DNA from: Nymphaea colorata
Taxonomy: Eukaryota > Streptophyta > Magnoliopsida > Nymphaeales > Nymphaeaceae
Direction: 5' to 3'
DNA length: 64,000 bases
Assembly (NCBI RefSeq): GCF_008831285.2
Contig: NC_045138.2
Location: forward strand, 37,067,115-37,131,114
Position numbers and translations under genes: made by a program. The notes below the pieces were generated by a model that was given only the letters and a program-made list of their open reading frames with translations, was not told the DNA's origin and did no database searches. Shown here in pieces: positions 15,567-63,956 of this stretch (within the stretch, counting starts at the first letter, position 1; each line of letters opens with the position of its first letter).

Positions 15567-16186
15567 GTTGGATTTCTGGATTTTTGCAACTGTTAGCTCA
15601 ATAATGTCAAAGTCACCAACTTGTTTCATGGTCAATTAATCTGAGTTGCTTGTATCCATTGGAGCAACCGTTGGATGCCATAACAGAATGCAATCTTCTC
15701 AACTCTTTTTTTGTTGTGCGTGATTGATGCCAGCACACACTTCTGATTTGTATGCCATAAATTGTTATTATGTGTAATATAGTATGCTATACACGACCTG
15801 GGGAAATGTTGAATTTATTCCTGTTGCGTTATAGTTCCAATTTGTAGGAATTTGTACGTATGAGGTGGCTGTTTTTTTTTTCCGTGAGGTGGTTACTTTT
15901 GTCTGGCACTGTGTCTCCACCATGCAGGAGTGCATGTGAGAGTAAAATTCTTCTCGAAACATGTTCGAGTGCTAATGCATAAACACATTATGCACATTAA
16001 GCTCCCAGTGTTGTTATCAGAGCCTGTTCATCAGAAGTAGTCAAAATAACACGGTAGCAGATGAAGTTCAGTTTAAATCCTGTTCTTTCTTACATAGCTT
16101 CCTGTCATTATTTATGGACTTTGATTTTGCTGTTTAAAGCTGAATATTTGGTGCATTTTATGCAGTTAGTTTCCAATTTGGCAACC

Positions 16187-18160
16187 ATGTCGCCTCAAGC
16201 CAGGTCCAAATCAAAGGAGAAGTCCTCCTCAAAGGCCACTAAGGAACAGAAAAGCCCTTCAAAAGTGGCGAATGGCAACGCTAGTGCTGGTAGTCCGGCA
16301 AATGCATATAACCCTGTTTCTGGTACATTTCACTCACTTGAAACGGTAGCCGTCTCACCTGCTGCATCTCCTAAAGGGCGGTATAGATCTATTGATGAAA
16401 CGGATGATCATTCTGGCAGTTCACTTGGAACTACAGCAGATTATGATTCCGTGTCTAACAACGAGAGCTGTTCTGGGGAGTCAGAAGATCTAAAGGAGAA
16501 GGCCTCTGTTGCTCCAAGGCAAGAACCTCCCCCTGGTTCTGGGTCCTCTGGAAATGAGAAACGGGACAAGATCCGTCAAAAGAATGAGAGGAAGCATCAG
16601 AGGCAGAGAGAACGGCGTGCACAAGAGCTCCACGACCGCTGCAATGGTTATCTGATGTCATGGAAGCTGGAAGCTCTTTTGCAGCAACTTGTGGCGATGG
16701 GATTCTCATCTGATCGGGCAACAATGGCACTTATCATGAATGAGGGCCGTGCAGAAGAATCGGTGGCATGGCTGTTTGAAGCTGGTGAGGAAGTTCAGGC
16801 AGCTGAGGCAAAAGTAGGAGCAGGAGGAAACCTTAAGATAGATATAACCGAAGAGCTGGCGCGGATGGCAGACATGGAAATTAAGTTTAAATGTACGAAG
16901 CAGGAGGTGGAACGTGCTGTTGTTGCCTGTGAAGGTGACCTTGAGAAAGCAGCAGAACTTCTAAGGACCCAGAAACAGGAAACAAAATCTTCAAAACCTG
17001 AAGAGCCTATGGACCTACCCTCTAGTGCTGGCACGAAGCAAGTAGCTGCTGTGCCATTGAGTGTTTCAAAGGCGCCGTCAATTGCCAAGGCTGGAGCTGT
17101 TCCTCTGGTTCTGCAGAGACGAGAGGAGCGAGATTTTAACTATGCAAGAATGGTGTCTGATCCTGGCAACAGACAAGTTGTGGCTGGGAGAAGAAGCCAA
17201 GCCAAGTCAGAATGGGCTAGGAATCAGCTACCACCCACAACAGATAGGAAGTCGTGGCCAAGTGCTAGTGCGAGTGCCTCCGTCTCCTATTCTCTGGCCA
17301 CAACCTTGTCTGGGGTGCCATTGGCACCAAAGACGTCGCAGCCGGATGCGAGGGGCCTGGCTGGGGGTAACGAGAGCAAGACTAGTTCTCAGACAGTGAC
17401 TGTTAGGGAGCCTGTGATTGTTATGCAGCGACCTCAGTCCAATAACTCGAAGCAACATTCAGCAACCAATCCGGGCGGTACTTCGGCGATGGTGAGTTGG
17501 AAAACGAAAAGTGATGGTGGCATCGAGCATGTGCCGAGCAGTGGCCCTGTAGATACGGTGGCCACAAGTACCTCGACCTCAAATGCTGGTGCTCAGCAAC
17601 ATAAGCCAAGTCAGTATCAGCCATTCATGCCTAGTCCAGTCGATGCCATTGCCGCAAGTTGGAGTGCAGCAACTAGCATCGCCGGTGGGTATGGGGGATC
17701 AGCAGACCCACAGATACCTGCCGGAGCTGGATGGAGCGCACAAGGGCACCAGCACCTTGGTGTGTCGTCAGCGCTGGGTGTGTACGCAGGATGGAGTTCA
17801 TCGGGTCCGTCTGGTAATCCTTTCTCCCCATCAACAGCAGATTGGAGTAGAGGCCGGTTGATGATGGAATGTGATTACACCAACATCGATTGGAGTTTGA
17901 CACCATCGTCCTGTATATCTCGGCCAGGTCAGTCGACGCCAGGTTTTAGCTCGCTCAGTTCTAACAGCCAGGCATATGAGCCATGGTTGGGGACGAGCGA
18001 CTCAAAGGGCGTTGGTGGCCTGTTCGGCTCCCGGCAGCGGGAGCAGAACAGTGGTGTTGCGCCGGAAGGATCGTCTGCATTGCATGATTGGACGTCTCCC
18101 TTTGCTGGGAAAGATTTGTTTAGTCTGCCAAGGCAGGTCGTGACCTCTCCGTCTCTTTAA
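16187..18160 (+). CDS. Two-UBA-domain protein, tandem copy 1
   Basis: Intronless coding exon of 657 codons for a plant UBA-domain protein of unknown function; UBA domains usually bind ubiquitin. The start is the ATG of MSPQARSK: it follows an acceptor TGCAG at 16161-16165, and the paralog shares MSPQ. In-frame sequence upstream (from 16061) is intron. Regions: Ser/Lys-rich head (1-30), a Ser/Asp/Glu-rich low-complexity part (about 65-105), a highly basic Arg/Lys coil (about 123-148), UBA 1 with the MGF motif (about 158-198), a second UBA-like three-helix unit (about 218-260), then a long Ser/Pro/Gln-rich disordered part and a conserved C-terminus with NIDWS, EPWLGTSDSKG, LHDWTSPFAGKDLF and TSPSL. 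The paralog at 23231 retains all of these. The basic coil could bind nucleic acid, which is inference. Confidence 0.93.
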   Translation: MSPQARSKSKEKSSSKATKEQKSPSKVANGNASAGSPANAYNPVSGTFHSLETVAVSPAASPKGRYRSIDETDDHSGSSLGTTADYDSVSNNESCSGESEDLKEKASVAPRQEPPPGSGSSGNEKRDKIRQKNERKHQRQRERRAQELHDRCNGYLMSWKLEALLQQLVAMGFSSDRATMALIMNEGRAEESVAWLFEAGEEVQAAEAKVGAGGNLKIDITEELARMADMEIKFKCTKQEVERAVVACEGDLEKAAELLRTQKQETKSSKPEEPMDLPSSAGTKQVAAVPLSVSKAPSIAKAGAVPLVLQRREERDFNYARMVSDPGNRQVVAGRRSQAKSEWARNQLPPTTDRKSWPSASASASVSYSLATTLSGVPLAPKTSQPDARGLAGGNESKTSSQTVTVREPVIVMQRPQSNNSKQHSATNPGGTSAMVSWKTKSDGGIEHVPSSGPVDTVATSTSTSNAGAQQHKPSQYQPFMPSPVDAIAASWSAATSIAGGYGGSADPQIPAGAGWSAQGHQHLGVSSALGVYAGWSSSGPSGNPFSPSTADWSRGRLMMECDYTNIDWSLTPSSCISRPGQSTPGFSSLSSNSQAYEPWLGTSDSKGVGGLFGSRQREQNSGVAPEGSSALHDWTSPFAGKDLFSLPRQVVTSPSL

Positions 18161-22802: not shown

Positions 22803-23230
22803 TCCTGATTTTTTATGGGGGACGTGATTAATATGTTGAACGATATGCTGGACAAGATATAGGAAAAATTGGTTTCCACGTCCGTTCCCATTTGTTGGAA
22901 TTTGTACATATGAGGTGGCTGTTTTTTTGTTTGTGAGGTGGTTACTTTTTGCTGGCACTGCGCACCGCTATGCTAGAGTGCCTGTGGTGGACAGAAATTT
23001 TTTTCCTAGGAACGTTAAGTGCCGGACACAAACGCATTGTGCTTGTTAGGTTTTCAGCATGGGAGATCCTGTTCACCAAAGGCCGTTAAAAGAACTCAAG
23101 AGTGCATGGAAGTTCAGTTTCAATCTTGTTCTTTATTATAAAGATGCCTGTCGCTATTTATGGACTTACATTTGTTGCTTAAAGCTGAATATTTATGCAT
23201 GTTACGCAGGTAATTTCCTATTTGACATTC

Positions 23231-25171
23231 ATGTCGCCTCAAGGCAGGTCCAAATCGAAGAAGTCCACAAAGGCCACCAAGGAACAGAAAACCCCTTCCA
23301 AAATGGTGAATAGCAATGCGACTGCTGGTATTCCAGCAAATGCATACAACCCTGGGTTTGTCACACTTCACTCACTTGAAACGGTAGCTGTCTCACCTGC
23401 CCCATCACCTCATGGGCGATCCATATCTACTGATGAAACCGATGAACATTCTGGTAGCTCACTTGGAACGGCAGCAGAGTATGACTCCGTCTCTAACAAC
23501 GATAGCTGCTCGGGTGGGTCAGAAGACCTGAAGGACAAGGTCTCTGTTGGTCTTAGGCTAGAACCTCCTCTTGGCTGTCCATCCTCTGGAAATGAGAAGC
23601 GGGACAAGATTCGTCAGAAGAATGAGAGGAAGCATCAGAGACAGAGGGAGCGGCGTGCACAAGAGGTCCATGACCGCTGCAATGGTTACGTGATGTCATG
23701 GAAGCTGGAAGCTCTTTGTCAGCAACTTGTGGCTATGGGATTCTCATCAGATCAAGCAACCATGGCGCTTACCATGAACGACGGCCGCATTGAAGAGTCT
23801 GTTGCATGGCTGTTTGAAGCTGGTGAGGAAGTTCTTGGGGCAGAGGCAAAAATGCCCACAAGAGGTAACCTTAAGTTAGATATAACTGAAGAGCTCTCTC
23901 GAATAGCAGACATGGAAATTACGTTCAAGTGTACGAGGCAGGAGGTTGAACGAGCTGTTGTTGCCTGTGAAGGTGACCTTGAGAAAGCAGCAGAAATTCT
24001 AAAGGCTCACAAACAGGAAGCAAAATCTTCAAAACCTGAAGAGCCTATAGGTTCACCTTCTAGTGGCAGCACCAAGCAAGCAACCTCCGTGCCATTGACT
24101 ATTTTGAAGTCACCGGCGGTTGCCAAATCTGCAGCTTCTCCTCTGGTTATGCGAAGACAAGATGAAAGAGATTTCAACTACACAAAAACGGTTGCAGATC
24201 CTAGCAACAAACAAGTTGCAGCTGCGAAAAGAAGCCAAAGCAAGACAGACTGGGCTAGGACTCTGCGACCGTCCTCCACAGATAAGTTGTGGCCGAGTGC
24301 AAATACGAGTCCCTCTTATTCTCTGGCCACAACCATGCCTGTGTTGCCACTGGCATCAAAGGCATTGCAGCCTGATTCTAGGGTTCTGGTTGGGTCTAAT
24401 GAGAGGAAGACTAATTCTCAGACAGTAACGGTTAGGGAGCCTGTGATTGTTATGCAGCGGCCCCAGTCAGTTTACTCGACGCAACACTCAGCAGCCAGTC
24501 CGCGCGATACTTCAGCAACGGTCGGTTGGAAAACGAAAGGTGGTAGCACCGGCGACCAAACTGGCACTGAAGACACAGTGGCGGTCGGTACCTCGACATC
24601 AATTGCTGGTGCCCAACGCCGTCAGTTAAGTCAGTATCAGCCGTTCATGCCCAGTCCGGTTGATGCAATTGCTGCAAGTTGGAATGCAGCAACTAGCATC
24701 TCCAGAGGTTGTGGTGGATCAGCAGACCAACTGCTACCTGCTAGTGGTGTCTGGAGCGCTCCAGTATCACTCGATTCTTTGCCGTTCGCGCTGGGTTCGT
24801 ACACGGCGCGGAGTTCATCAGGGCCGTATAGTAACCCGTTCTCGGCATCACCAGCAGATTGGAATAGGGGCCGGTTGATGGTGGACTGTGATTACACCAA
24901 CATCGACTGGAGCGTAACACCTTCGTCCTGCATATCTCGGCCGGGTCAAGCAAGGCAAGGTTTTAGCTCGCTGAGTCCAAACAGTCGGCCGTATGAGCCA
25001 TGGTTGGGAACGAGCGACTCAAAGGGCAAGGGTGGCCTGTTTGGCTCCCGGCTGCAGGACGATGGTGTCGCAAGGGAAGGATCCTCTGCGTTGCATGATT
25101 GGACGTCTCCCTTTGCTGGGAAGGATTTGTTCAACCTGCCAAGGCAGATCGTGACTTCTCCGTCTCTTTAA
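23231..25171 (+). CDS. Two-UBA-domain protein, tandem copy 2
   Basis: Intronless coding exon of 646 codons, paralogous to 16187-18160. The start is MSPQGRSKSKKS, placed just after acceptor CAG 23207-23209; frame upstream of it is intron. Kept features: basic Arg/Lys coil (RDKIRQKNERKHQRQRERR), UBA 1 around LCQQLVAMGFSSDQATMAL, a second UBA-like unit from DITEELSRIADMEI to the KAAEILKAHK stretch, QTVTVREPVIVMQRPQS, and the C-terminus CDYTNIDWS...EPWLGTSDSKGKGGLFGS...LHDWTSPFAGKDLF...TSPSL. Differences concentrate in the Ser/Pro/Gln-rich linker, where residues and small gaps vary freely; the domains are nearly unchanged. Both copies are open throughout, so both look functional. A function is not known to me. 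Confidence 0.93.
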   Translation: MSPQGRSKSKKSTKATKEQKTPSKMVNSNATAGIPANAYNPGFVTLHSLETVAVSPAPSPHGRSISTDETDEHSGSSLGTAAEYDSVSNNDSCSGGSEDLKDKVSVGLRLEPPLGCPSSGNEKRDKIRQKNERKHQRQRERRAQEVHDRCNGYVMSWKLEALCQQLVAMGFSSDQATMALTMNDGRIEESVAWLFEAGEEVLGAEAKMPTRGNLKLDITEELSRIADMEITFKCTRQEVERAVVACEGDLEKAAEILKAHKQEAKSSKPEEPIGSPSSGSTKQATSVPLTILKSPAVAKSAASPLVMRRQDERDFNYTKTVADPSNKQVAAAKRSQSKTDWARTLRPSSTDKLWPSANTSPSYSLATTMPVLPLASKALQPDSRVLVGSNERKTNSQTVTVREPVIVMQRPQSVYSTQHSAASPRDTSATVGWKTKGGSTGDQTGTEDTVAVGTSTSIAGAQRRQLSQYQPFMPSPVDAIAASWNAATSISRGCGGSADQLLPASGVWSAPVSLDSLPFALGSYTARSSSGPYSNPFSASPADWNRGRLMVDCDYTNIDWSVTPSSCISRPGQARQGFSSLSPNSRPYEPWLGTSDSKGKGGLFGSRLQDDGVAREGSSALHDWTSPFAGKDLFNLPRQIVTSPSL

Positions 25172-26661: not shown

Positions 26662-29600
26662 TCACCTTGCTGATTTGCTGTCGCTGCTATCATTGCAAGG
26701 CGTGGCCCCAGGCGAGATCGGTTCAGTGTACCATTCATTCTCTCTTCGAGTGAGAAAATATGCCTCTGATAAATTACGTACTAATAATAAATGAGCAGCA
26801 AAAACAACGTATAACAATAAACTTCAGTTTCATCCATCAAACCAAATGCTTACCTGATACAAAGACATTTTGGTATTCGTCATCATCATAGATGAACTGT
26901 GGAGGATCTGGATCTCCAACACCAACTATGGTGCTTCCACTACAGAAAATAAGTCACGTGAACATGCAACCCATCACACATGGACATAATAGCAAAAGAT
27001 AATTCTCTAATGGGAGATAACCAGATGGGATTGTGACTTCTCATTGGAATGGTTGGCGAAATAAATCTTCCTACGTTAAGAAGAACGAATGTGTGGAGAT
27101 CACTTCGATGAGCTTCAGCAGTAAATATCCTATACTTAATGATCCCAAAGGCTTATTCTGCTATCCTATTGTGACTTCAAGGGCTACTTACAACAAATAT
27201 ATTTTGGTTGTTAACTTTTGTACTTGATAGTTTTGCTCAGCCCTATACCGTCTGGGAACTTAAATTGAACTAGGACTACGATGCTGCAGCTTCTATTTGT
27301 AGATACAGATAGCAGGTTTCTTTTTTAATAGTGGTTTTGTATGCCAATTTCGAAGAATACAAGATTTACTCCATAACGTGCCATATCAGCTCTAGGAAAA
27401 TAACAAACCTCCATCAACACCCTTAGTGAACAGTGTCACTTTGCTCTACGCAGCTTCCCCACTTGTTTCACACGATTAATAAATTTATTCATCCAAATGC
27501 TCTTGGCAGCTTCTTCTCGTTTACAGATTACTATCTAAATGAAAACGATTGGTATGCAAAGGAACATGGCCACTTGATGAATATAAAAACTTGATCCTAA
27601 AAAAAAGAAATCGGTAGCCAACAGATTTCAGGTTAATGTACCACCAAGATCCCTTCCAACAGTTCATCTATTCAAAATATACATATGCGTGCAACACCAG
27701 TTGCTTCCCTACAAAAAATGGAGAAACAAATGCCCTATAAGGAGAAAGGTTTACCTTCCTGACATGAAAACAGCAGCATATTGCCCACGCCCTGCAGCAA
27801 GGATCCTTTGCTTCAACTTTTTCAGGGACGGCAAGACTACAAAAGCAGGGGACTCTAGAGAACAGCGGACAATTTCATCAGCTAGCAAGGAAAAATATTA
27901 TTATAAGACTACAAGGTTTCCATCCAAGCATGTAGCATACCCAGGTCATTGATACAGACATCTTGAGAAAACCCACTTTCCCTGATCTTCTCCAACAAGG
28001 ATAAAGGATCAGCTGAGCTAGTCTGGTCTAGGCGAAGGTTCTGCATATTTAGAACACTGTCAAATGAGCACCACACAAGCTTAACAGCAAGAATTGAAGA
28101 TCAGCTCATTTTTACTAACGTACCCTATAAACTTCACCAGTAGGGCAAGCTTCTTGAGGCTTTATTAAAACCAATGGCATATCCATGGGAATTGGTGAAG
28201 GAATATCCTGAACGACCTGGACAGTCCAACTATTCAAACTTTTTAAAAACATAATCTTGAAACAGTTAAACCCTGAACAGCATAGGCATGGTTGAGATGT
28301 AATAGAAAAAGAGATAGGACTACTACCAAATAAGAATAAGCAAATAATAACCCGCGAAGAGATATGCAACAATGTCATTTTTTATTTCTCCTAACAATCA
28401 TTGGTGGCCATGCCTTTAAGGTGCAAAGAGCATACCTCACCCCTACCAGTACAATATGCTGCTCCATGAGAGAAAAAGAAGGGAATATCTGAACCAATCT
28501 CACTTGACCATTCTTGAAGCTCCTTTTCTGTAGCAATGCCTCCAGTAAACTGGTTTGCAGCCCATAATGCAGTAGCAGCATTACTACTTCCACCACCAAG
28601 CCCAGCACCAGAAGGAACCTTTTTGTCAAGATGGATCTGCAGGCATCCGTAAACAATAAGATGGGGCAGTCCAGTTGCTCCACATTCATGTAAAGTTCAC
28701 ACGTTCAAAAAATAATGATGACAAATATTATGAGATCCTAATAGTAGATACCCAGAAGTAGTTGTCAGTGCCTGTCTTCTTTCTGTAAAGATTAAGTGCT
28801 TTGATAATCTGGCAAAGATAACATAGGTCAAAAAATTAGAAAGAACAACCTTTAGGTACATGGAAGTTCATCAGCTTGATGTGAACAGAATTCGCGTATG
28901 GAAATGACAGAGCATGTCCAAAGACTGGTAAATTACAGAGACCTAAGAAATCACAACTAATACAGAGAACATGCCATCATAGGATAATGAAAACATCCAA
29001 TCTACTCTGGCACTTAAATTTGAAATCCAAGTTTTGTTTAAGCTCACCAAATTGCTCTCGTCGAGAGGGATTCCTGGCACATTAGTTGACAACCGGTCTC
29101 TACTTTTTGTCGGGGACAATGAAAACTTAATTGTATCTCCTAAACTGATTACCTGATCACAAAATGAACACAAGGCTAAGAATATTCAAGATAACTTCAT
29201 ACAAAACTCGATCTGGTGTCAGTTTGCACAAGTATATAACGTTTAATCCTGCTCATCCAGAATCTCTGAGAAGTCTAAGGTCTCGTGCAGTGAAAGTGCC
29301 AATAACTTAGTTATGTGACTAATCTTCCTATGACTTTGTTACGAATTCTCAAAAGAACAGCAGATTTAGAATAAGGAAAGCGTAGTCGTACAGGCTTACA
29401 TGAAAAAGAGAAGCTAAATCGTGGTACCCGTCGTCTCTCCTGCTTGTTATTCTCAAGAAGACATTAATCTGGCTTCCACAAGGCGCGATATAATCAAAAC
29501 CAGCAGACAGAAAATTAAAATTGCATTGCTACAAAAGCATCAGAATGGTAAAGCAGGAACATGACGATATGAGCCTATTGAACTAATAATGTGGTACCTT

Positions 29601-32105: not shown

Positions 32106-35100
32106 CTAAGGGGATGATCGACCACTTCTCACCACCAGATCTTTAATGGTCATTGTGAGCTCATTGTCGCTCAATAGTGTCTCCAAACTCACATGCATAC
32201 CTGAAATGTGAGTTGGATAGATCCAACAAACAGAATAAGAGCATGAGATGTAAAAGAACATCTGAAATCATCATGTAGTTTGGAACCGCAAGAGTAGCGT
32301 ATCATTTGTGCAGTTCGGTTAAATGTAGATAAGACACATAGGCCTATAAGCAGCTAAACTCAGTCTTTGTTAATCCTTCAGTAACTAAACGGGACTAAAC
32401 CCATACACAAGTCTAATTTAATGTATTTCAGCATTCACAAATGTGTCTTTAGCTCCTACAGTCAACTGCTTGGAGAAGTACAATGCCATGGGAAGACATG
32501 ACAACCACCAAATAGAAAGAGAGTAAGATCATCAGACCAACTCATCAACTCAGATATGTTTTCAACTCTTTGAACTGCCAAGGTAAGTTATTTTGGACTG
32601 GCAAAGATCTATCCATATGTGTGCCATATGTTTCTCAGAAGGCCCTTACCATGCATCATATATAGGTGTAACCAGGATGGTTACCCAGTAAGGGCCCAAC
32701 TGAATATTACGTTTACCCAGCTTTCTAAGACACAAAGCTGGTGATACCTTATTTTTCTTATGTAAATGTCAAGCCTAGGAATCTTTGATGTGCCTGATAA
32801 AGAAGATGATGATCAGATTCATCCGAGTGCTTTTTCATCTTCCACACGTGTTTCCATCCAAGTTGCTTAGCAAGAGACAATACTGAATATGTGATGCTTC
32901 AAGGGCCTGAGAGTTCACTAGTTTCACCACCCAATGCAGTAACAGTCACTCTAACTAAAGAAAATAAAGTTGAAGAAAAAATGACCGTCAGATGAACAGC
33001 TGGGAAAGCAAAGTGAAAACCAAAACAATAAAAATAGGCTATCTTTTTCACCGAAAAGAGGGTGACCAACTTACGATATCGCCAGTAGTGTTTTGGGTTT
33101 GTTGGGTCATTGATTGTCTCCTCCACTGCAGGTCGGATTGTATATATTTCTTTCAGTGCCAACAGATCCTGCACATGAATAGAAGGTTACCAGTAAATGA
33201 TGCACATTCTCAAATTTCTAACTGTGGGGTTACAGTGAATTGTTTTAGGCAAACAACAATACCTGGAGAGGGAAAATTGCCCACATTGATGGTGACTCAA
33301 AATGCTGCTGTATGATGTTGTATGCGATACTGGGAACACAGGACGAAGGCGGTATACCATCGTCTCCGATTATTTCCTTAAAATATCGTTCTCTTCGTTC
33401 CTCGCTTTCTTCCCACCAAGCACGCAGTGTCGAGCAATCATGACATGATGGTGCACAAACCTGGAAATAGTGAAAGCAGTCTAGTTGAATTATAGTCAGG
33501 TTTGCCTCTCACAGTGATTTATGAAGCAACAATATTTTATTCCCTTCTAGCACATGACCTTGAAAAATGCCAAGGCCAGTTCAAGGACTGTGTATTCTAG
33601 GGTTCCAGGTCATATTCAATAGAATTCTCTAGTCAAACTGGAAAACCTGGATCATGCTTAAAAGAACTTGCTTGGCATCATCAAAGACTCAACAAGATGC
33701 CAGTTGATGCATAAATCCAACTAGTTCACTAGTCTTGAGTCTTGACAGTCATTTTAAAGATGAATTATAACTTACTGTCATGTAGTCATACTTCGATGGG
33801 ATACCAAACTCGAGACCCAGGTCGCTAGGCATCCGCTGAATGCGGAGTCCAATTATACCAAGCTCTTGCATAACCTGAACAGGGCACCCAAGGTCAATAA
33901 ATAAGCAAAGATGCTTACAGTAACGGATGAGTAGAAAGAACATACAGGATGAACACATGAAGGAATAAGTCCAAGATCTTCTCCACAAGCTAACATATTT
34001 GATGAGTTCAAGAGGGCAGGTAGGGTCTTCAGTGCATTTTTACGCCAAAGGATTTCTTGCCGGTGGAAATAATACTCATAATATAATCTTCTCAGTACAT
34101 TTTTACTGCATGACAAGAAAATAATGCATGAGGCCAGATTTTTAATTTGACAAGAAATAGAACAACCAAAACTTATTTAGAGATAAATAGAGAGATCCAT
34201 CATAAGTGATAATAAACTTATTTAAAAGAGAGAGGAACCCATAAATCTTTCCTAACACCAGCAAGAGCACATGATGCTCTAGTAAATTACAAAATGATGA
34301 AAAACCAAGAATTAAGGTAGATAATAATAATTCTAGTAATTACAACAAAAGAAAAAACAGCAGCAATAATAAAAATAATATCATTAATATTATAGTAATT
34401 TTATTGTTACCAAACATTGACTGGGCCCAATTCAAGTACCTGTGATCGTCTAAATCTTTAAAGCTAGATGTATCTTCCATATTAAATCGAGGATAAAATT
34501 TTCTTGTATCTTCTTCATCTCTAATAAGAACAACATTCTGCAAATAAAACCAATCAGCATATTTCCAAGTGACAGTTGCACTAATCCTGAGGTAAGAAAT
34601 GCAGAACTGTAGTAACTGTATCTTCAAAAGAATCACGGAAACTATTTAATAAGATACCTTTAAAAGATCAAAAAGATCATTTTGTATTTTGTTCTCTTGC
34701 TCTATCCACAAGATCCTTTCGGTGGCTGACTTAAGCTTGGCAGCAATTCTTTTTTCCGTGTTGCAGTCCTCCTTGAACTGGAATTGTCATTAAGAATGAG
34801 CTTTGCTCATTTTTCTACAGGAAGAGTGAACAAAATGAAAGAAACAAGGTCTTGTGCATTTTATTTCTAAAAATCTATTGATCCATGAATTTAACAGATA
34901 AACGCATGGACATCTAGGAATCTTGAAACCTTCTCAGCAGAAGAATTTGTAAGTGCAGGGTGAGACATCCTAAATTACTGAATATGTTTCCTATGAAGTA
35001 CGAACAAACATCCTAGACTTATAGCTTTTCAGTTATGTGTTCTGTTAGTTTTTCAAAGGAGGCAGCAGTTTGGAGGATCTGTAATAAACCTACCACAAAA

Positions 35101-38100
35101 CACAAATCAGAAGTACTTGAACCAAAGGAGAAGAAAGGAAAACTGCAAAAAATGATAAATGAGTAACTTTTTTTAACGCAAAGTCATATAATAAGGCAAG
35201 TTATTCCAATAGCCCTACAATCATCAAAACGGAACAGCAACCAAAACAAAAGAGCAGACATTGGAAACTCCAACACAGGAACTAAAATCACCTCATAGCA
35301 GAGCTTCTGGTACTCATTCAAGAAGGTTGAAGCAATAACCGTCCACAGGCATCCAAATTTCCCCTGACATACTCACAGTAATCAGACAAGAAAAACTGGA
35401 TAGGATATCGCAAAGCTCAAAATATGTTCGTACAAATACCTCTAACATGTCTTTTCGAATGTATGGATGGGTGAGTCGATTGAAATCCCATATACCTTCC
35501 TTCTCAAGCTCTTCCTGGAGAGTGAAAATAAGATGCAGCCAAGAAAAAATGTCAGTAGGTGCCTTGTCTTATATATTCCTTATATGCTAAGTTGCTGACA
35601 ATAGATGTAGTAATGCAGTAAATTGCTCAATGGAAAATGCTATTCTAGTAGATACCAATACCTGGCTAAGAGGGATGGATGGCCGAAATTTTCCCAGTAA
35701 ACCAGTAATAGCATGTTCAGGCAGTTCCCAGATTCGAAAGAAACCCAAAATATGGTCAATCCTGTATGCAGTGAAATACTTCCCCATCTGAAGGTAATAT
35801 GAAATAAATCACAGGTAGATAAGTCTATGGTGTCCTCAAGTACACCGAGTACAACCTTGAAAATGATGGCGTCAAAGATATATTAACATGATTTATTAGA
35901 AGGATGTCTATCAATTTTGAAGGACAAAGGAAAACTGTATGACATAAACAGCTATAAGATAAGCAGGAACCTGTGACAAACGGTAACGCCACCAAGCATA
36001 ATTATCTTTTGACATCTCCTCCCAGTTATAGGTTGGGAAACCCCAGTTCTGCCCATTTTTGTCAAAATAATCAGGAGGTGCTCCAGTTGATGTGTTCATA
36101 CGAAAGAGATTTGGGTAAACCCAAGTGTCAACACTCCATCTATCCACCCCAATGGGTAGGTCACCCTTCAAGACTACTCCTTTCCTTCTTGCATAGGAAG
36201 CTACCTCTGAGAGCTGATATAATAAAAAACAAATTAATATTTATATGCATCCCAAAACAGTAAGTTTTCCACTGCAATATAATGTTTCAGATAATTCAAC
36301 TTGGATCACCTGTAGGTGTAGATGATATTGGATATAGTAATGGAAGCATATGATGTCATAGTGTACTCTGTTTTTTGAAACAATTTTCTCCAACTGAAAT
36401 ATCCAAAAAATATCAACAGTGGGAAGAACTTGGAAAGGAATCAAAATATAAACAATTTACGAAAGTCAAACAATAGAAAGTTTTGAAATGCTGTGCAAAT
36501 AATCTAGGAAACTAAATTACCTTCTCAACCGAATATTTGGCAAAAGAACCCCACTGAGTGTGATCTGATGTTTCAAAAAATTCCTTTAGGAAACAGAAGG
36601 CTGCATAAGGTTTCAACCAATCCTGTCCATAGTTGATAGAAGGTAAAAGAAAAATAAGGTCCCCGCTGATATGTAAACAAGAAAGTGGTAAGTTAAGCAG
36701 CAAGCCTGAGCGTTGACTAATTAAACACTAAACTTTTTCTTCAAGCATGACAGATATGTAGAACATATACAAAAGTTAATGGGCATTGAAGATGAAAACA
36801 ACAGATGGCTTTCACATGTTGTACATGATATTGCAGGGGCTGTTGAAAAAAAAAAAAAAAAAAAAAAGATGATATACCTCATTCTCAGAAAAGAATTTCT
36901 GAAAGGAACTGGAAGAAAGCACAGCATCCTTCTCTACTGAGAAAACCTTCTTGGCAATGGAAATTTTTATGTTCATGGTAGCTTCATAATCCACATCCTG
37001 CATTTGACCCAGGTAAAAATAGAACAGATCCTAACACCAAGTATAATGAAGCAACACATGTTGCATGCGAATTCCACCATATCAAAGATTTTAAAATGGC
37101 TAGGACAATTCTGAAATGGAATAACCTCCATAGCATGAAGAACAAAAAAGAATTTGTATTTGTGGAGCATAAAGTAATTGGTTGTCCAATAAAAATGACC
37201 AATAGCCTGATTTATGAACAAAACATTTTGTTAAAACGTTTGATGTTGATCTTATCCCACAGCTTCAATGAGCTCAAATGAAGTTGATCAAGTTAAACAT
37301 AAAAATTCATTAATGCAGCATTCTCAATAACCACATCTCACCGTGCCACAAGCTAAGAACAAGGCAAAAAGAAGCAAACGTAAATTGGAAAATCAAATCA
37401 TGGGTCCCAACCAATAAAGAAACAAAAATATCTTTATAATAGTGTATTAAGGGTCCTACGTTGGCATCGGTAAGCTTGTTCCTGTGCAATAAAAAAGGAA
37501 CGCCTGAATTACCTTAAGGTCTAGATTACTTTTAGCCTGTATGATCTCGTTCTGCAAGAATATGAAACACAATTTCTAAGTACATAATGAAATTTGCAGA
37601 ATTTGTTTCAAATGGGAACACATCAAGAAAAAGAAGATTTGCATAAACCATGGAAAGCTAACCTAAAAAATTGTAGAACATAAGTGCTCAGTAAAAGGTA
37701 CCTCAATTTCATCTGAAAAACTCTTTGAAAGGGCTTGTACTCTCAAATACAAAGGATGCAACGCAAAGACGGATAGAGAACTGCACTATAATCTCATTCT
37801 TACTTCACATGTTTCAAATTCATAATGAGTCACTGCAAGGCTCATACAAACTTGTGTATATGCATGTTGGCCCTACGGTAACCTCTGTTTATTTTTCTGA
37901 GTTCAACAAAGCAACCAGAATGATATTCTTACCTGTAGGGATATGAATCCCACCACATTCCATGGACAGATGTATCATTGACAGGCAAAAGCTGAATCAA
38001 GTGAAATCCTGAATCAACTGCCCAATCGATTAATAACTTAAGGTCAAGGAATTCTCCAACTCCGAGGTCATCTTCTGATCTAATTGAAAACATGGGAATA

Positions 38101-39624
38101 GCAATGCCAGCACCTCTCCAGGAAGCTTCCTGCAAAACATTGAAATCTGTAGTGAGCATGGAAAGGCATACTCAAAAGGAGAATATCAAGAACTAAATAT
38201 TACCCGGAAGACACCATCAGATGCCAAAATATGCCTTGGTATCCTGTCTAAGATTGAATCAATTGTATGATCTCTGTTGGGGCCAATTTCCAGGATTGCA
38301 TTTCCTCTCTTGCTTATTTTACCATATTTGTATGTACAGAAGTTAATAAGGAAACCAATGTGTATGAATTCAAACGTCATCATAAACAAGTGCTGTTCAC
38401 GTGATTAATGTGTGCATACTTGTATATATATATGTATGCATCCATCCATGCCCATATGACAAAATCATGTTTGGAAGGATATTTTATAGGAAATTCACAT
38501 TTGTTTACTATACAATCTGCTTGCCAAATGGATCCACCTAAACATGTAAGTTCTAGTCCATTCTTCACCTCCCATCTCCCAAGCATGCTACAGCTTCCAG
38601 TCACAATAACCTGCACATGTTCTTATAGTGAACAAGTCTTTGAATATCCAGAAACAACTGGATAAGTCAACATATGACTTACCAAGAGTTAGGATAAATT
38701 CATGAAGCATGTTATGCATAAAGGTTTGCATGGAACACAAGATATTCATGTAATTATTGAATACTTACAGACACACCATCTTCCAACTTTGGGCAGTTTA
38801 TTCTGAAGTGAATGTACACATAATCCGTTCCTGTACCCAAAGCAAGTTGAAGTTGAAAAGAGAAGAAGAAAAAACTCAAGTTTTCCTTCATTGACCAGAA
38901 AATGGACACCTGCTAGCAATGGCTTGATTCCCTGCTGATTCAGAGCCGCCTTGGAATTTTGACAGCCATTTTGGGCAACATAAGAATCTGAATTGCTCCT
39001 CCTATGAAAAATAACGTCCTTGAATGCACTTCTATTGAAGAGAGCTTCTTTTGCAGTCTGATTAGGACAATTACCATCAGCATGCTTTTTATATGCATCA
39101 ATGTTTTAAATGAACTAGTCACCATAGATAGTCCTGCTCAACCAACGATAGCTTAACAAAAAAGCATGAAAATGAGAGAAATGTGATATTTTATGCTTAC
39201 AAGATGATGTTTTGTTATAGTGAACAGGATACAATCGCGCCCAGTATTTCACATGATAGGATTACAACTAAGGTGCATTTGAACTTCGATTCCCTTGCAC
39301 GACTGGAACAGTAAGGGTATAACAAAACCTTCATCAAGTTATCAACGAGTAAACCAGCAAAATTATGACGAACGACCTGCATGAAAAGCTCAAAGTCTTG
39401 CATTCTCCCCATTTGGCTGGTGGATATGTTTACTTATCAAGCCCACACACACACTCATGCAGCCAATCAACCAGAGAAACCCTTCCTAGATTTTTTAATA
39501 AATAAGCGTAGACATTTCAATTCCGCGTTCAAATTGCTAATGATTTATCACAATAATGACGTACAAACGTCAAAAATACTCTGTGGCCACTGTCATGGTT
39601 CATACCTATGAAACTAATTCCATG

Positions 39625-39674
<50 letters not shown>

Positions 39675-40439
39675 TTCAATGCCTACAGGCGAAAATCTTT
39701 ATGTAGTGACCTCAAGTAAAACATATTCCAATTTCATTTCATGTAACATAAGAAACTAGAGAAAATTCTCCACGAACACATAAAGGGCCATGTATTGTTC
39801 AGAACGTTGGGTCTTAAAAGCCCATGAGGGACTTGAGTGCTAAAAAACCGTACTAATTAGAATTTTTCCTGATAATTTAATTGAATTGACCTTAGGGATT
39901 GTCATAGGTCGGACCCCATAGTCAAGATTCACACATGCACACACTCACAGCAGCACATCACAGGTAAGCATAAGTCCCAAAATCCAATGCGATAGCACGA
40001 GCTAGAAGCCTCAAACTATAAAAGTGAAGCGAGAAGGAACTAGCTGGCAAGAAAACGAAGAACAACATGCCAAAGCAAATTGGATTACCTGCCAAAGATC
40101 ATGGATCTCAACTACCTCTCCTTCCTGAAATTCAGAGGTTAGAGCGATGGTGTGCCTGCTTCCCTCCCATCTCAACAGCTCTCTCTCGTCGTCCACCAAG
40201 AAGTAGCCGTACTCGCACCTGAAACCAACGGGAACGCTGAGCGTCCCGCACCAAAGAAGGTCGTTGTTGGCATGAACAGGGGTTAGAAGGAGCCCCCGCT
40301 TCACGTTCCATGATCCCAGGACCGGTTCCGAGCCCGAGACGAGTAGGCTCTGGCCCCATTGAGTGTGGTAAGGGATCCTGAACGACAGGAGGAGCCTCTT
40401 TGATGGGCTTCGTGGGGATTTTAGATCGATGGTCGCCAT
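32106..40439 (-). CDS. DPE2: 4-alpha-glucanotransferase DPE2 (disproportionating enzyme 2)
   Basis: Cytosolic GH77 enzyme that moves one glucosyl unit of maltose to a heteroglycan and frees glucose, central to night-time starch use. Twenty-two exons (minus): 40439-40089, 39057-38910, 38830-38769, 38610-38483, 38333-38204, 38129-37933, 37780-37702, 37551-37513, 36997-36878, 36622-36521, 36393-36310, 36213-35971, 35787-35662, 35514-35440, 35363-35292, 34777-34658, 34537-34440, 34105-33946, 33874-33776, 33460-33263, 33168-33075, 32200-32106; 939 codons, all joins in frame. Two N-terminal CBM20 starch-binding modules (about 10-120 and 165-265) precede the catalytic domain. Nucleophile Asp572 (AYRIDHILGFF), acid/base Glu767 (LACGEDLGLIP) and Asp819 (VCAPSCHDCS) are present. 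The insertion typical of DPE2 (about 605-715) is present. Intron 4 is AT-AC. Start: MATIDLKSP; an in-frame ATG at 40475 would add 12 residues. No transit peptide is evident. Confidence 0.95.
36844..36867. repeat. Poly-A tract in DPE2 intron
   Basis: A homopolymer A run of over 20 bases on the plus strand, just after exon 36997-36878 on the minus strand, where it gives a T-run in the intron. Confidence 0.9.
38334..38482 (-). other. AT-AC (U12-type) intron 4 of DPE2
   Basis: No GT-AG pair joins the two halves of the second CBM20 module. Starting the 149-base intron at ATATCCTTCC and ending it at CTTCTGTAC restores FPIK-YKYGK exactly as in other DPE2 proteins. ATATCCTT is the U12 5' splice-site consensus; TTCCTTATTAAC, about 10-20 bases before the terminal AC, fits the U12 branch region. 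Confidence 0.88.
39626..39670. repeat. (AT)n microsatellite in DPE2 intron 1
   Basis: About 22 uninterrupted TA units within the first DPE2 intron (40088-39058). Confidence 0.95.
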
Positions 40440-46157: not shown

Positions 46158-48282
46158 TCACACCTGCACCAACAATGCTCCAAGCAGAAGAGCCCATGGA
46201 ACCATTAACATGAAGGAAGCTGCATCAACAGCAGATTCTTGTGTCATCACCAGAACAGAATACAAGAGTTAAGGCAGTTGTGTGTTGTGAGTCTTGTGAC
46301 CATATTTACAAAAACCCTGAAACAAGGGCAACGTCCAAGTGCTAGATGCACCCAGCTGAACAAATTGGTTGAATCAATTTCAACTTTTAGGAAATAACTT
46401 ATTCCAGAGTTGTCAAAGAACCAAACAGCAGTGCAAGTTCTGAACACAAAGATAGTAAAAATAAACTTTGGTTGGAAAGTCCTCTCTGTGTATGTGTATG
46501 TGTATGTGAGAGTGTGTGTGAGAGAGAGAGGGAGAGAAAGAGAGCATACATGAAGCAGGAGATGGCGATGGGGAGGAAATCAACGGCAAGACCCGATTGG
46601 CATCACCTGGACTGGCTACAGGAGAACTTTCAACACTTTTGCTTGGAGCTGCAGTTATACTTGGAGGATGAACATGAGCAAAATAGACTGCTCGCAAAGG
46701 TGGTGCTGCAGGAAATCTGACTGATGATGCAGGACGGTCCCCTTTTGGCTGCACTGATGCAGAAGGAGAAGTAACAGGGGCAACATGGGCATTTCTTTTA
46801 TGACCCAAGGAAGATCCAGTATGGCATTGGGATGGAGGCAATGCATAGCGGTGGTGATGAGGAGAAACATAATTAGTTGCAGGGCGAGGAGAAGGTGCAG
46901 AAGCTGGAGCTACATGAAAATTATGATGGTGGTGATGGTGCCCGTGGTGGTGGTGGTGGTGATGGTTTTGGTGAGGAGCAGGAGCTGGACTTGGCGAGCC
47001 ATCACCACCAAGTGAATATGGAAGAGAAGATGATAATCTGACCTCCTTCACTTTACCAAAGACCCTGTGATTCAGACCAAGGTTTCTTTCTGGCGAATCA
47101 GTTATGGTTTGGGCCAACTGCTTCACCCTTGGTGCAGCAAGTGGAAGTCCAACTTCTGCAAAAATTGATGCCTGAACTATAACTGGAGGGGACAATGTAG
47201 AACCTTTTAAATTTGTCAATTTCACATACAAAGCCTGCAATTGAAAGACAGCTTTAATCAATGTATATTATCAACATTATCAGATAGAATGCATCAGAGA
47301 AAAGAACATAAATAAATGTCGACGCCAATGATTAACTTGAATCTTCAAAAAGTGTTAGGTGAAAAGATGAGGAAAACCTCATGCTGCCTGAGATGCAAGC
47401 CCAACTTAAGCTGGTTCTTCAACTCATCAAGATTATCTTGGATTTGGTATATGGGATAATTCAATGTGAAGTTAAAACGAACTTGAACTTTCTGGAGAAG
47501 GAACACATGTTGGTCTGGAGTAATAGTTATTCCCCCAGGGAATTTCAACACCTCAAAAGACGAAGGAACCCCAAACATGCTTGGAGTCAGCTGCAGATTT
47601 GACTGCTGTATAACCAAAGATACCAAAGAGGACCTCAGTATACTCAACCCAGCAGAAGAAATAGGTGAGTCTTCAGCATATGGGAGAACACCAAACACAA
47701 CATTTGTCCAGTTTGATCGAGAATGGGAGTGCAGTGATATAATAACCACCTGTTCATATTACAACGTCAGCCATAGCAGCTTGGAACTGATCAAATAACT
47801 AGACATGGAAGGAATGCAAACAAAAACCAAACCGTGGTGTTCGGAACTCCAATTTCTCCAAGTATATCATATTCAAGCTTTAGAATCGTAGATTTCGCAC
47901 GCAGGAACGACACAGGCCCTTGCAGTTTGAAACTTGCTTCAATTTGAGCTGCAGAAAAACTTCTCTCAGATCAAAAACTTCCAAAATATTTGGGTAGAGA
48001 ATTAGACAGAACCTTGTAAAGGCAAATAATAACAAACAAGCGCACAATATGTTAATCAGTAAGTTCCTATCATTCTGTACTATGTCATACGGACTCTTCA
48101 AAAAAGGGGCCGCACCCGTGTCGACACGACGCTGGTGCTGGTGCTGCTCCGACACGCACCCCAACTGCATCCTTTCTTATGCAAGTTCAAAATATTTTCC
48201 TTTTTTTTTCTTCTCCCTGTCCCTTTCTTTCTTTATGTATAGTAATAAAAGTGAAAAGACAGATTAAGCTAAGAAACAAGCT

Positions 48283-61100: not shown

Positions 61101-63956
61101 TTAAATATTCGTTTCAATAAGTATCTTCCGGTTTACAAGCTTAATGTTTGTATTTTCACTTCATTTTAGAAAGAGGAGGCCAAAAAAGAAGATTTTAAGA
61201 CAGGCTCCTGGAGTATCATCATCTGCACTACAAGAAGCTCATGATATATTTGGTGATGTCGATGAGCTTCTTTTGCTTCGCAAGCAAGGCCTTAAAAAGG
61301 GTGGCGGTTATGATGATTCTGGTGATTGGAGAGAGAAAAGACTTGAGGATGAGTTTGAACCTAGTGTTATCAAGGAGAAGTATTTGTCAGAGAAAGACAA
61401 TCAGATCCGTGACAAGGATATGCCTGAGAGGATTCAGGTACACTCTTCCATTAACTAATTATTAACAGTATTTCACTGAACTGTCACTTTGAACATCTTC
61501 AATGTCAGGCTAGACATTCCGTATGTTTCTAGAATTGCAATACCTGTGACATTTTCATATTATACTCATGTGATCAAAAGTTAAGAGTTGGTTGTTTCAG
61601 TTTTAAAAAAGTATGCTGTATCACGAAGTTATTTTACCAAAAAAAGAAAAAGTGTACATTTTCAAGACATAAGAAAGTGGATCTTGTTTTCATCGGTGCC
61701 ACTTTACTTGTTAGCCTCTGTATTTTGGTGATTTAGTTTCTTTCATATGCTCTTTTGCCATTTCTGATTATGCAACAATTTATGGTTCTTTTGGTCTAGT
61801 CTCTCTCTCTCTTTGCCTGATTCCATTTTTTCTCTTCAAAGACATTATTGCTAGGTTTCAGGAAACATTTTGCACTTATTTCCTTCTCATTTTTGTCTAG
61901 TTCATTCTTCATATTATGCTAACAATATCATGCATGAAGCTCCTTACTCTGTCCCAAGTTTTAAATGAATAGTATTTGATTTTGGATCCAGAATGATAAA
62001 CTGATATTCTTGCATTTGTTTTTTCTCCATTTAGAAGACTTGTGACATATATTTGAAATTTTGCTTCTTTATCATCTAAGTGAGTTTTGAGTTTTGCCTG
62101 GTTAAGTTTATTAGGATTTCAAAAGGCATATGTCTAAATAAATACTGTTATTTTTATTTGATTAGGTTTTATAAGTTAGATCTTTCTGTTTCTACATCCG
62201 GTACAAACAAAATTGATGATGGAAATTGATCTGCTTCATACTCCCAAGAACAGAATGATTGGGAATTGTATGTTATTTGGCAATCATTCATTATCTACTT
62301 CTGATTTCTTTGACCATTTTATTGTTCTGGAAAAAACATGAGTAGCTTGATGCAATATCAACCTTGTCTTAGTTCATATGGACACAAAATTGATTGCCTT
62401 GTTTTTCTGTTGGAGTCTTTCATTATCTAAACTTATTATTTAAGGCTAGTGATGGGGACTGGCAGTATTTTACATGAAGCTATTCTGGTTGTTGAGGGAA
62501 TTTAGGAATTAGTTTGACAGAAAAGGTCGAGGTACTTAGGATACTAGCTTTCCAGATTTTGAGATCAACAAGTGGGCTCTGGAACATATTTTGTTTTCCT
62601 CTTTTTAAATGCAAATGCATCGACTGGCTGGTCCCAGAATTATGTGCCTCGTCCTTGTAGAAGAACCGGCATCTTGTTGTTTGCCATCTCTTAGTGCATG
62701 GTAACTGTCTGATTTTCAATTTCCGGGCGAGGATTGGTTGCTATGTTTTCTGAGAGCATGGAAATTTATCCTTTGTCTTGATTAGCTTCTATTTGTGAGA
62801 GGGTGTCTAAGTTAGGGTTTAGCCAAGTTCCTTGTCAGGTTTCTGACTTGCACTTGCCTGATTACAATTGCTGATAAATTTTTCTAATGGAATTCTGCAG
62901 TTATTTGAAGAAATGGTTGGTCCTATTCCTGAAGATGATGAGAGTATACAGGCGGAGGCAACTTGGATTTTCAACCAGCTAAGTGGCTCTGCAATGTTGC
63001 GTCTGTTTGGAGAGCATGCTGCAGTCCCGGAGATTGACAGGGAGGACATTGCCAATGTCCTGGGAATGCTGCACGTTCAGAAGTTTGAGGTGAGCTTTGA
63101 AGATGGGAATGTTTCAGATACACAGGGAAGCTGGTTGTTTCTGTGTACATGATTTTCTTTTCTGTTTCAGATTCCTTTTATTGCAATGTATCGAAAAGAG
63201 CTATGTCTCAGCTTGTTAAGAGATCCAGTTCAGGATGCTGCAGCAGGTGAAGACAATAAACGCCATGTGAAGTGGCATAAGGTGATTGTGTTTACTTTTG
63301 CATGCAAGCAGCCATGTGCTTGCTGAAAATTGTGCATGATCTGATTACTTATCCTTCAAACAATTAAATTTGTTGCTCACTTCGTCAGAGGAACTTTTTG
63401 CAGTTGCTCTGGGCTGTGCATAACTTGGATAAAAAGTGGCTTCTTCTTCAGAAGAGGAAGAATTCTCTGCAGTTATATTACAAAAAACGAGCATCTGAGG
63501 AAGCGAACATTGATGTGTCCAAAAAGAAACTTCTTGAGTCGCTTGTTGATATGCTTAAGAATGCTGACTCCGAGAGAGTAGTTGATGACATTGATCTGAA
63601 GTTTAACTTGCACTTTCCTCCTGATGAAGTGGATGCAGAGGAGGGACAATTCAAACGACCAAAGAGAAAATCCCTCTACAGTATTTGTCGTAAGGCTGGA
63701 CTAGGTGATGCAGCAGGCATGTTTGGGCTCAGTCCTGAAAAGTTCGGAAAACTTCTTGGACTGGAGGAGATGGTATAGGTCCCTTTCTGCCCAGAATTAT
63801 TTTTCAGTTGCCAAATATAATGAGAAAGCTAACTTAGACCATTTGCAGGGTGAGCAAGTGGTTGATGCTAGGGAAACACCTGAGGAAGTTGCACTAAAAT
63901 TTCAATCCAGAGAGTTTGAGACTCCTCAGGATGTCCTTAAAGGTGCCAGGCACATG
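58154..63956 (+). CDS. SPT6: Transcription elongation factor SPT6, 3'-partial
   Basis: Histone chaperone and RNA polymerase II elongation factor. Visible exons: 58154-58187, 59386-59472, 59665-59791, 59915-60002, 60096-60252, 60503-60638, 61170-61437, 62901-63089, 63171-63281, 63404-63772 and 63849-63956; 558 codons in frame, about a third of the usual plant length, so the YqgF, HhH, S1 and SH2 parts lie beyond the window. The start is MGGRNVISDEE. The acidic N-terminus (about 12-85) has DGFIVDD and long Asp/Glu runs, then a Lys/Arg cluster, DYELLQEANVTGF, another acidic DFIVDEEE stretch, and KRRPKKKILRQAPGVSS. From about 300 the conserved core starts: LFEEMVGPIPEDDESIQAEATWIFNQL, then EIPFIAMYRKELC, HNLDKKWLLLQKRK and LKFNLHFPPDEVDAEEGQFKRPKR. 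The last visible donor is GTATGG at 63957. The 61.4-62.9 kb intron shows nothing else. Confidence 0.94.
58342..58356. promoter_or_regulatory. Telomere-like motif in SPT6 intron 1
   Basis: TTAGGGTTAGGGTTT, whose reverse complement contains the telo-box AAACCCTAA. It lies about 150 bases inside the first intron, where plant growth-related genes often carry enhancing elements. Confidence 0.5.

Follow-up and report, generated by a model that had tools for sequence, protein, structure and literature searches.

A DPE2-type gene and its surroundings in Nymphaea colorata

The window analyzed here, a stretch of 64,000 nucleotides of the Nymphaea colorata genome, carries on its minus strand a gene for a DPE2-type 4-alpha-glucanotransferase (Table 1). 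The model divides into 22 exons and 21 introns, and Pfam recognizes in the product two stretches of CBM20 (PF00686; 94.8 bits) followed by GH77 (PF02446; 458.2 bits), which places the protein in the DPE2 type. Two CBM20 modules and a GH77 domain are the make-up of plant DPE2, and it is in this architecture that the window gene resembles it. PMC3789958 describes plant DPE2 as a glucanotransferase with several domains that takes part in breaking down leaf starch.

To build the gene model, open stretches were linked through GT-AG or GC-AG introns, with exons 4 and 5 joined via AT-AC. The donor and acceptor matrices used for joining were rough ones; for introns 3, 8, and 9, the second-listed splice pair was picked for its fit to Arabidopsis DPE2 rather than for its splice score, and introns 14 and 15 were positioned by hand. 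Among the 21 introns of the model (40088-32201), 16 are in phase 0 and three are in phase 2, the AT-AC intron among the latter. A search of the species' own genome (407.8 Mb in 783 contigs) for a second or processed copy of DPE2 returned 3 matches, all of them exons of the same locus.

Just downstream of DPE2, the stretch 28394-28696 (minus strand) contains a GHMP kinase N-terminal domain according to Pfam, and we take it to resemble the isoprenoid-pathway kinase ISPE. Elsewhere in the window, two long open stretches on the plus strand (16058-18157 and 23189-25168; 700 and 660 amino acids) have near-alike starts and UBA-type domains and are probably a tandem duplication, and at 46416-47267 on the minus strand a DUF7036 domain precedes a run rich in histidine and proline.

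The predicted fourth intron of DPE2 interrupts the second CBM20 module. The removed piece starts with ATATCCTTCC, ends with TTCCTTATTAACTTCTGTAC, and has an A+T content of 66%. Exon 4 ends in ...CCT ATA AA and exon 5 starts with A TAC AAA TAT GGT, which together read FPIKYKYGK; with the ATG at 40439 as codon 1, the split codon comes after 229 complete ones.

Table 1. Features of the window considered in the text (window positions; a slash marks a splice boundary)
Feature	Position	Strand	Remarks
DPE2-type 4-alpha-glucanotransferase, coding sequence	32106..40439	minus	22 exons, 939 aa, CBM20-CBM20-GH77; our model and Pfam
Exon 4, first part of second CBM20	38483..38610	minus	Ends ...CEFPI plus two bases of codon 230 (AA/A)
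Predicted U12-type AT-AC intron 4 of DPE2	38334..38482	minus	149 nt, phase 2; first in ending-blind scan, plus motifs
U12-type 5' splice site ATATCCTT	38475..38482	minus	8/8 to RTATCCTT
Branch-site-like string TTCCTTATT	38345..38353	minus	8/9 to TTCCTTRAY; A at -14, T replaces second A
Alternative branch string TTAAC (CTTATTAAC)	38342..38346	minus	6/9; As at -11 and -10
3' splice site TGTAC	38334..38338	minus	In-frame AC restoring K-Y-K-Y
Exon 5, remainder of second CBM20	38204..38333	minus	Completes K230, then YKYGK
Second AT-AC signature (ATATCCTT, CTCCTTGAT, AC near branch distance)	61421-61353	minus	Antisense to open coding-like stretch

Splicing signals of intron 4

Both signals named in the original prediction, a 5' splice site matching the U12 consensus and a string at branch distance, were recovered. 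The 5' site matches in full (8/8), and the branch-like string TTCCTTATT matches at 8/9 positions, with its A at -14. The branch consensus used for motif scoring, TTCCTTRAY, appears in PMC5932401. The other 20 introns of DPE2 reach at most 6/8 at the 5' site and at most 7/9 at the branch. The A at -14 is separated from the exon by 13 nt, and the two As of TTAAC by 10 and 9 nt. The optimal branch-to-3' distance of U12-type introns is given as 11 to 13 nt in a passage of PMC3584512, which also states that either consensus A can serve as the branch point. Since a T stands in place of the second consensus A in intron 4, the branch A may be either the one at -14 or one of those at -11 and -10. The U12-type features found together in this intron are its 5' site, a branch region with A at the purine position, a short branch distance, and AT-AC ends, and its position in phase 2 agrees with the tendency of minor introns to avoid phase 0 that is described in part of PMC10639083.

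Taken singly, these motifs carry limited weight. RTATCCTT occurs 5 times in the window (both strands), where 3.4 occurrences are expected for ATATCCTT alone; the count is near chance, and the 5' motif by itself therefore means little. The window contains 26 RTATCCY sites, the one at 38482 among them, and only those at 38482 and 61421 have the complete signature within 200 nt. We rejected 61421-61353 as an intron and regard it as a chance signature, as it runs antisense to positions 61105-61455, which are open on the plus strand. This open stretch presumably belongs to SPT6; a Pfam scan of it returned no family. The presence of a whole signature at the antisense site indicates that motifs alone are insufficient. 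The chance of finding the 5' motif at one of the five equal best joins described below, together with AC and the branch motif at the proper distance, is about 1e-7 (5 x 3.9e-5 x 0.051 x 0.0085, with rates counted in the window and the intron 4 site included).

Matches to three RNAs of the minor spliceosome were also found in the genome. Matches above the family cut-offs comprised one for U12 (88.9 bits), one for U11 (75.0 bits), and five for U6atac (97.6 to 34.9 bits). U4atac had no match in the genome, and the same search gave none in any control genome either. Upstream of the U12 gene are a TATA box and an element of the plant snRNA type (2 mismatches in 11 positions). When the last 30 nt of intron 4 were paired with the core of the genome's own U12, the predicted energy was -11.2 kcal/mol, the best among the 21 introns (the next reaching -7.9) and equal to the value for the consensus branch site; 28 of 2,000 shuffled sequences equaled it. 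This best pairing is continuous and leaves no bulged A. Pairing at the 5' site was not distinctive, with 284 of 2,000 shuffles as good for U6atac and 534 of 2,000 for U11, and some other DPE2 introns pair with these two RNAs as well as or better than intron 4 does.

If intron 4 were retained, the reading frame would run 33 residues beyond codon 230 to a stop and yield a 263-residue product without GH77, and the Pfam CBM20 score, 33.7 bits for the joined sequence, falls to 17.6 against a cut-off of 23.3. The intron might be retained often enough, or spliced slowly enough, to act as a throttle on the level of DPE2, a possibility that we consider unlikely. The early stop upon retention and the branch site lying one position off the consensus would suit it, as would the generally slower removal of U12-type introns reported in a passage of PMC3584512. 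It is from this general slowness that a dependence of DPE2 expression on minor-spliceosome efficiency would follow. However, intron 4 is rich in A+T and its branch string has kept an A at the upstream purine position, both of which favor U12 splicing in plants according to part of PMC5932401.

Choice of the junction between exons 4 and 5

The original prediction had placed an intron with AT-AC ends at 38334..38482, and on the minus strand its coordinates and the strings that it cited proved exact to the base. The join that it gave at codon 230, FPIKYKYGK, was reproduced from the sequence and rebuilds a strand that is conserved in bacterial homologs, and the remaining introns are GT-AG, as it had said, in 20 of 20 cases in a model for which the search at those junctions covered GT-AG and GC-AG only. 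Its statement that the segment can be removed in frame only with AT-AC ends was too strong. Within a 407-nt stretch, and with a minimum spacing of 50 nt between the two ends, the frame stays open for 29 of 176 GT-AG, 23 of 109 GC-AG, and 118 of 471 AT-AC removals, although the GT-AG and GC-AG removals score lower. Because AT-AC ends are not forced by the frame alone, homologs were used to judge the joins.

A scan of prokaryote genomes supplied 51 relatives, mostly from Bacteroidota by record title. The bacterial CBM20-CBM20-GH77 proteins (39 aligned) share 34 to 40% identity with the DPE2 of the window over the protein, and their reading frames are uninterrupted, unlike the DPE2 gene; proteins of this kind are a handy outgroup for checks of gene models. 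A scan of viral contigs found 2 stretches with the pattern, neither of them a relative, and a search of solved structures with a 118-residue query gave 11 matches up to E = 1, the best of which (E = 0.011) was to an unrelated enzyme. A hidden Markov model (HMM) was built from 39 of the 51 bacterial relatives, with no plant sequence included; 10 were dropped as shorter than 800 aa, and 2 gave no reading frame by marker strings. Every removal of at least 40 nt that left an open frame was then considered regardless of its ends, and the 14,437 such removals, corresponding to 8,299 different proteins, were scored with the HMM.

The protein resulting from the AT-AC join 38482/38334 ranked first of the 8,299, with 144.5 bits. 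Five neighboring removals yield this identical protein, one of which is AT-AC with a U12-type start. The runner-up protein scored 144.0 bits, a margin of 0.5 bit that is too small for the HMM to locate the boundary to a single base. In a control scan of 10 GT-AG introns of DPE2, which left out intron 20, the best of the GT-AG, GC-AG, and AT-AC choices agreed with the model in 8 of 10 cases, the exceptions being introns 3 and 5. The residues that follow position 230 are conserved across the 39 homologs: Y occupies position 231 in 36 and F in the other 3, position 232 is K in all 39, and position 233 is F in 26, Y in 12, and L in 1. We assume that Arabidopsis DPE2 reads FPIKYRY in this region. 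On the strength of these sequence comparisons, the predicted AT-AC join is one chosen by homology, not by frame.

Removal of a standard GT-AG or GC-AG intron instead, with an altered CBM20 segment as the result, seems very improbable. Such removals do leave the frame open in the numbers given above, and the pair formed by GT 38419 (CAA/GTATGC) and AG 38313 is the top GT-AG choice by the rough matrices. Its splice score, however, is -0.9, compared with 1.9 to 11.4 for the 18 listed pairs that were chosen at other junctions, and its removal loses the YKY strand of exon 5, in which the K is invariant among the homologs. In the ending-blind scan, the best GC-AG removal reached 137.3 bits (rank 103) and the best GT-AG removal 133.7 bits (rank 477). 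Splicing of these ends by the major spliceosome, as in a U2-type AT-AC intron, is scarcely credible. AT-AC termini do not by themselves settle the class (a passage of PMC3584512), but the 5' site ATATCCTT is of the U12 form and is accompanied by a U12-like branch string.

A predicted minor intron in a starch-turnover gene

The segment 38482..38334 is very likely a U12-type AT-AC intron, by far the best reading and a prediction to which the ending-blind homology scan, the 8/8 match at the 5' site, the 8/9 match of the branch string, the branch distance, and the genes for three minor snRNAs all lead. Its splicing in the cell, the recognition steps, and the branch point are what we infer from these features. 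By the known workings of the minor spliceosome, U11 and then U6atac would recognize AUAUCCUU, while UUUCCUUAUU, close to the 3' end of the intron, would be paired by U12. Attack on the 5' end would come from the A at -14 or from one of those at -11 and -10, and joining of the exons at ...GUAC/A would rebuild the second starch-binding module of DPE2.

The plain reading would be that of an ordinary minor intron whose removal is needed for the production of DPE2. A more far-reaching idea, which we hold to be improbable, is that the off-consensus, overlapping branch (TTCCTTATTAAC, with no bulged A) makes removal slow enough to set the amount of DPE2 and couples starch turnover to the minor spliceosome. 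If that were true, the level of DPE2, a nighttime maltose enzyme, would be set by the slow removal of intron 4.

As a minor intron, the predicted intron 4 of DPE2 has a close counterpart in intron 4 of CBP20, a plant U12-type AT-AC intron described in part of PMC5932401. Both have AT-AC ends and a branch region of the TTCCTTRAY type, and each is the single minor intron of its gene; the host genes differ, and the DPE2 intron has a T for the second branch A. With its 149 nt, the DPE2 intron falls within the short class of 76 to 284 nt given in the same passages. AT-AC introns make up 13 to 26% of the U12-type introns in four plant genomes according to part of PMC7367187, or 4.8% by the transcriptome count in PMC5932401, and by these shares DPE2 intron 4 would be otherwise ordinary. 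For the annotation of Arabidopsis, a section of PMC5716242 lists 81 AT-AC pairs.

A literature search covering main texts found, among the papers listed, none linking DPE2 with a minor intron, and gene terms for DPE2 are absent from the main text of PMC4892727, PMC2426677, and PMC5716242. The predicted intron 4 of DPE2 is best described as a new example of a known intron class, one that existing catalogs may well already list. A gene finder limited to GT-AG introns would garble the starch-binding module of a starch-turnover enzyme here. DPE2 intron 4 also offers a simple test of whether plant maltose metabolism responds to defects of the minor spliceosome.
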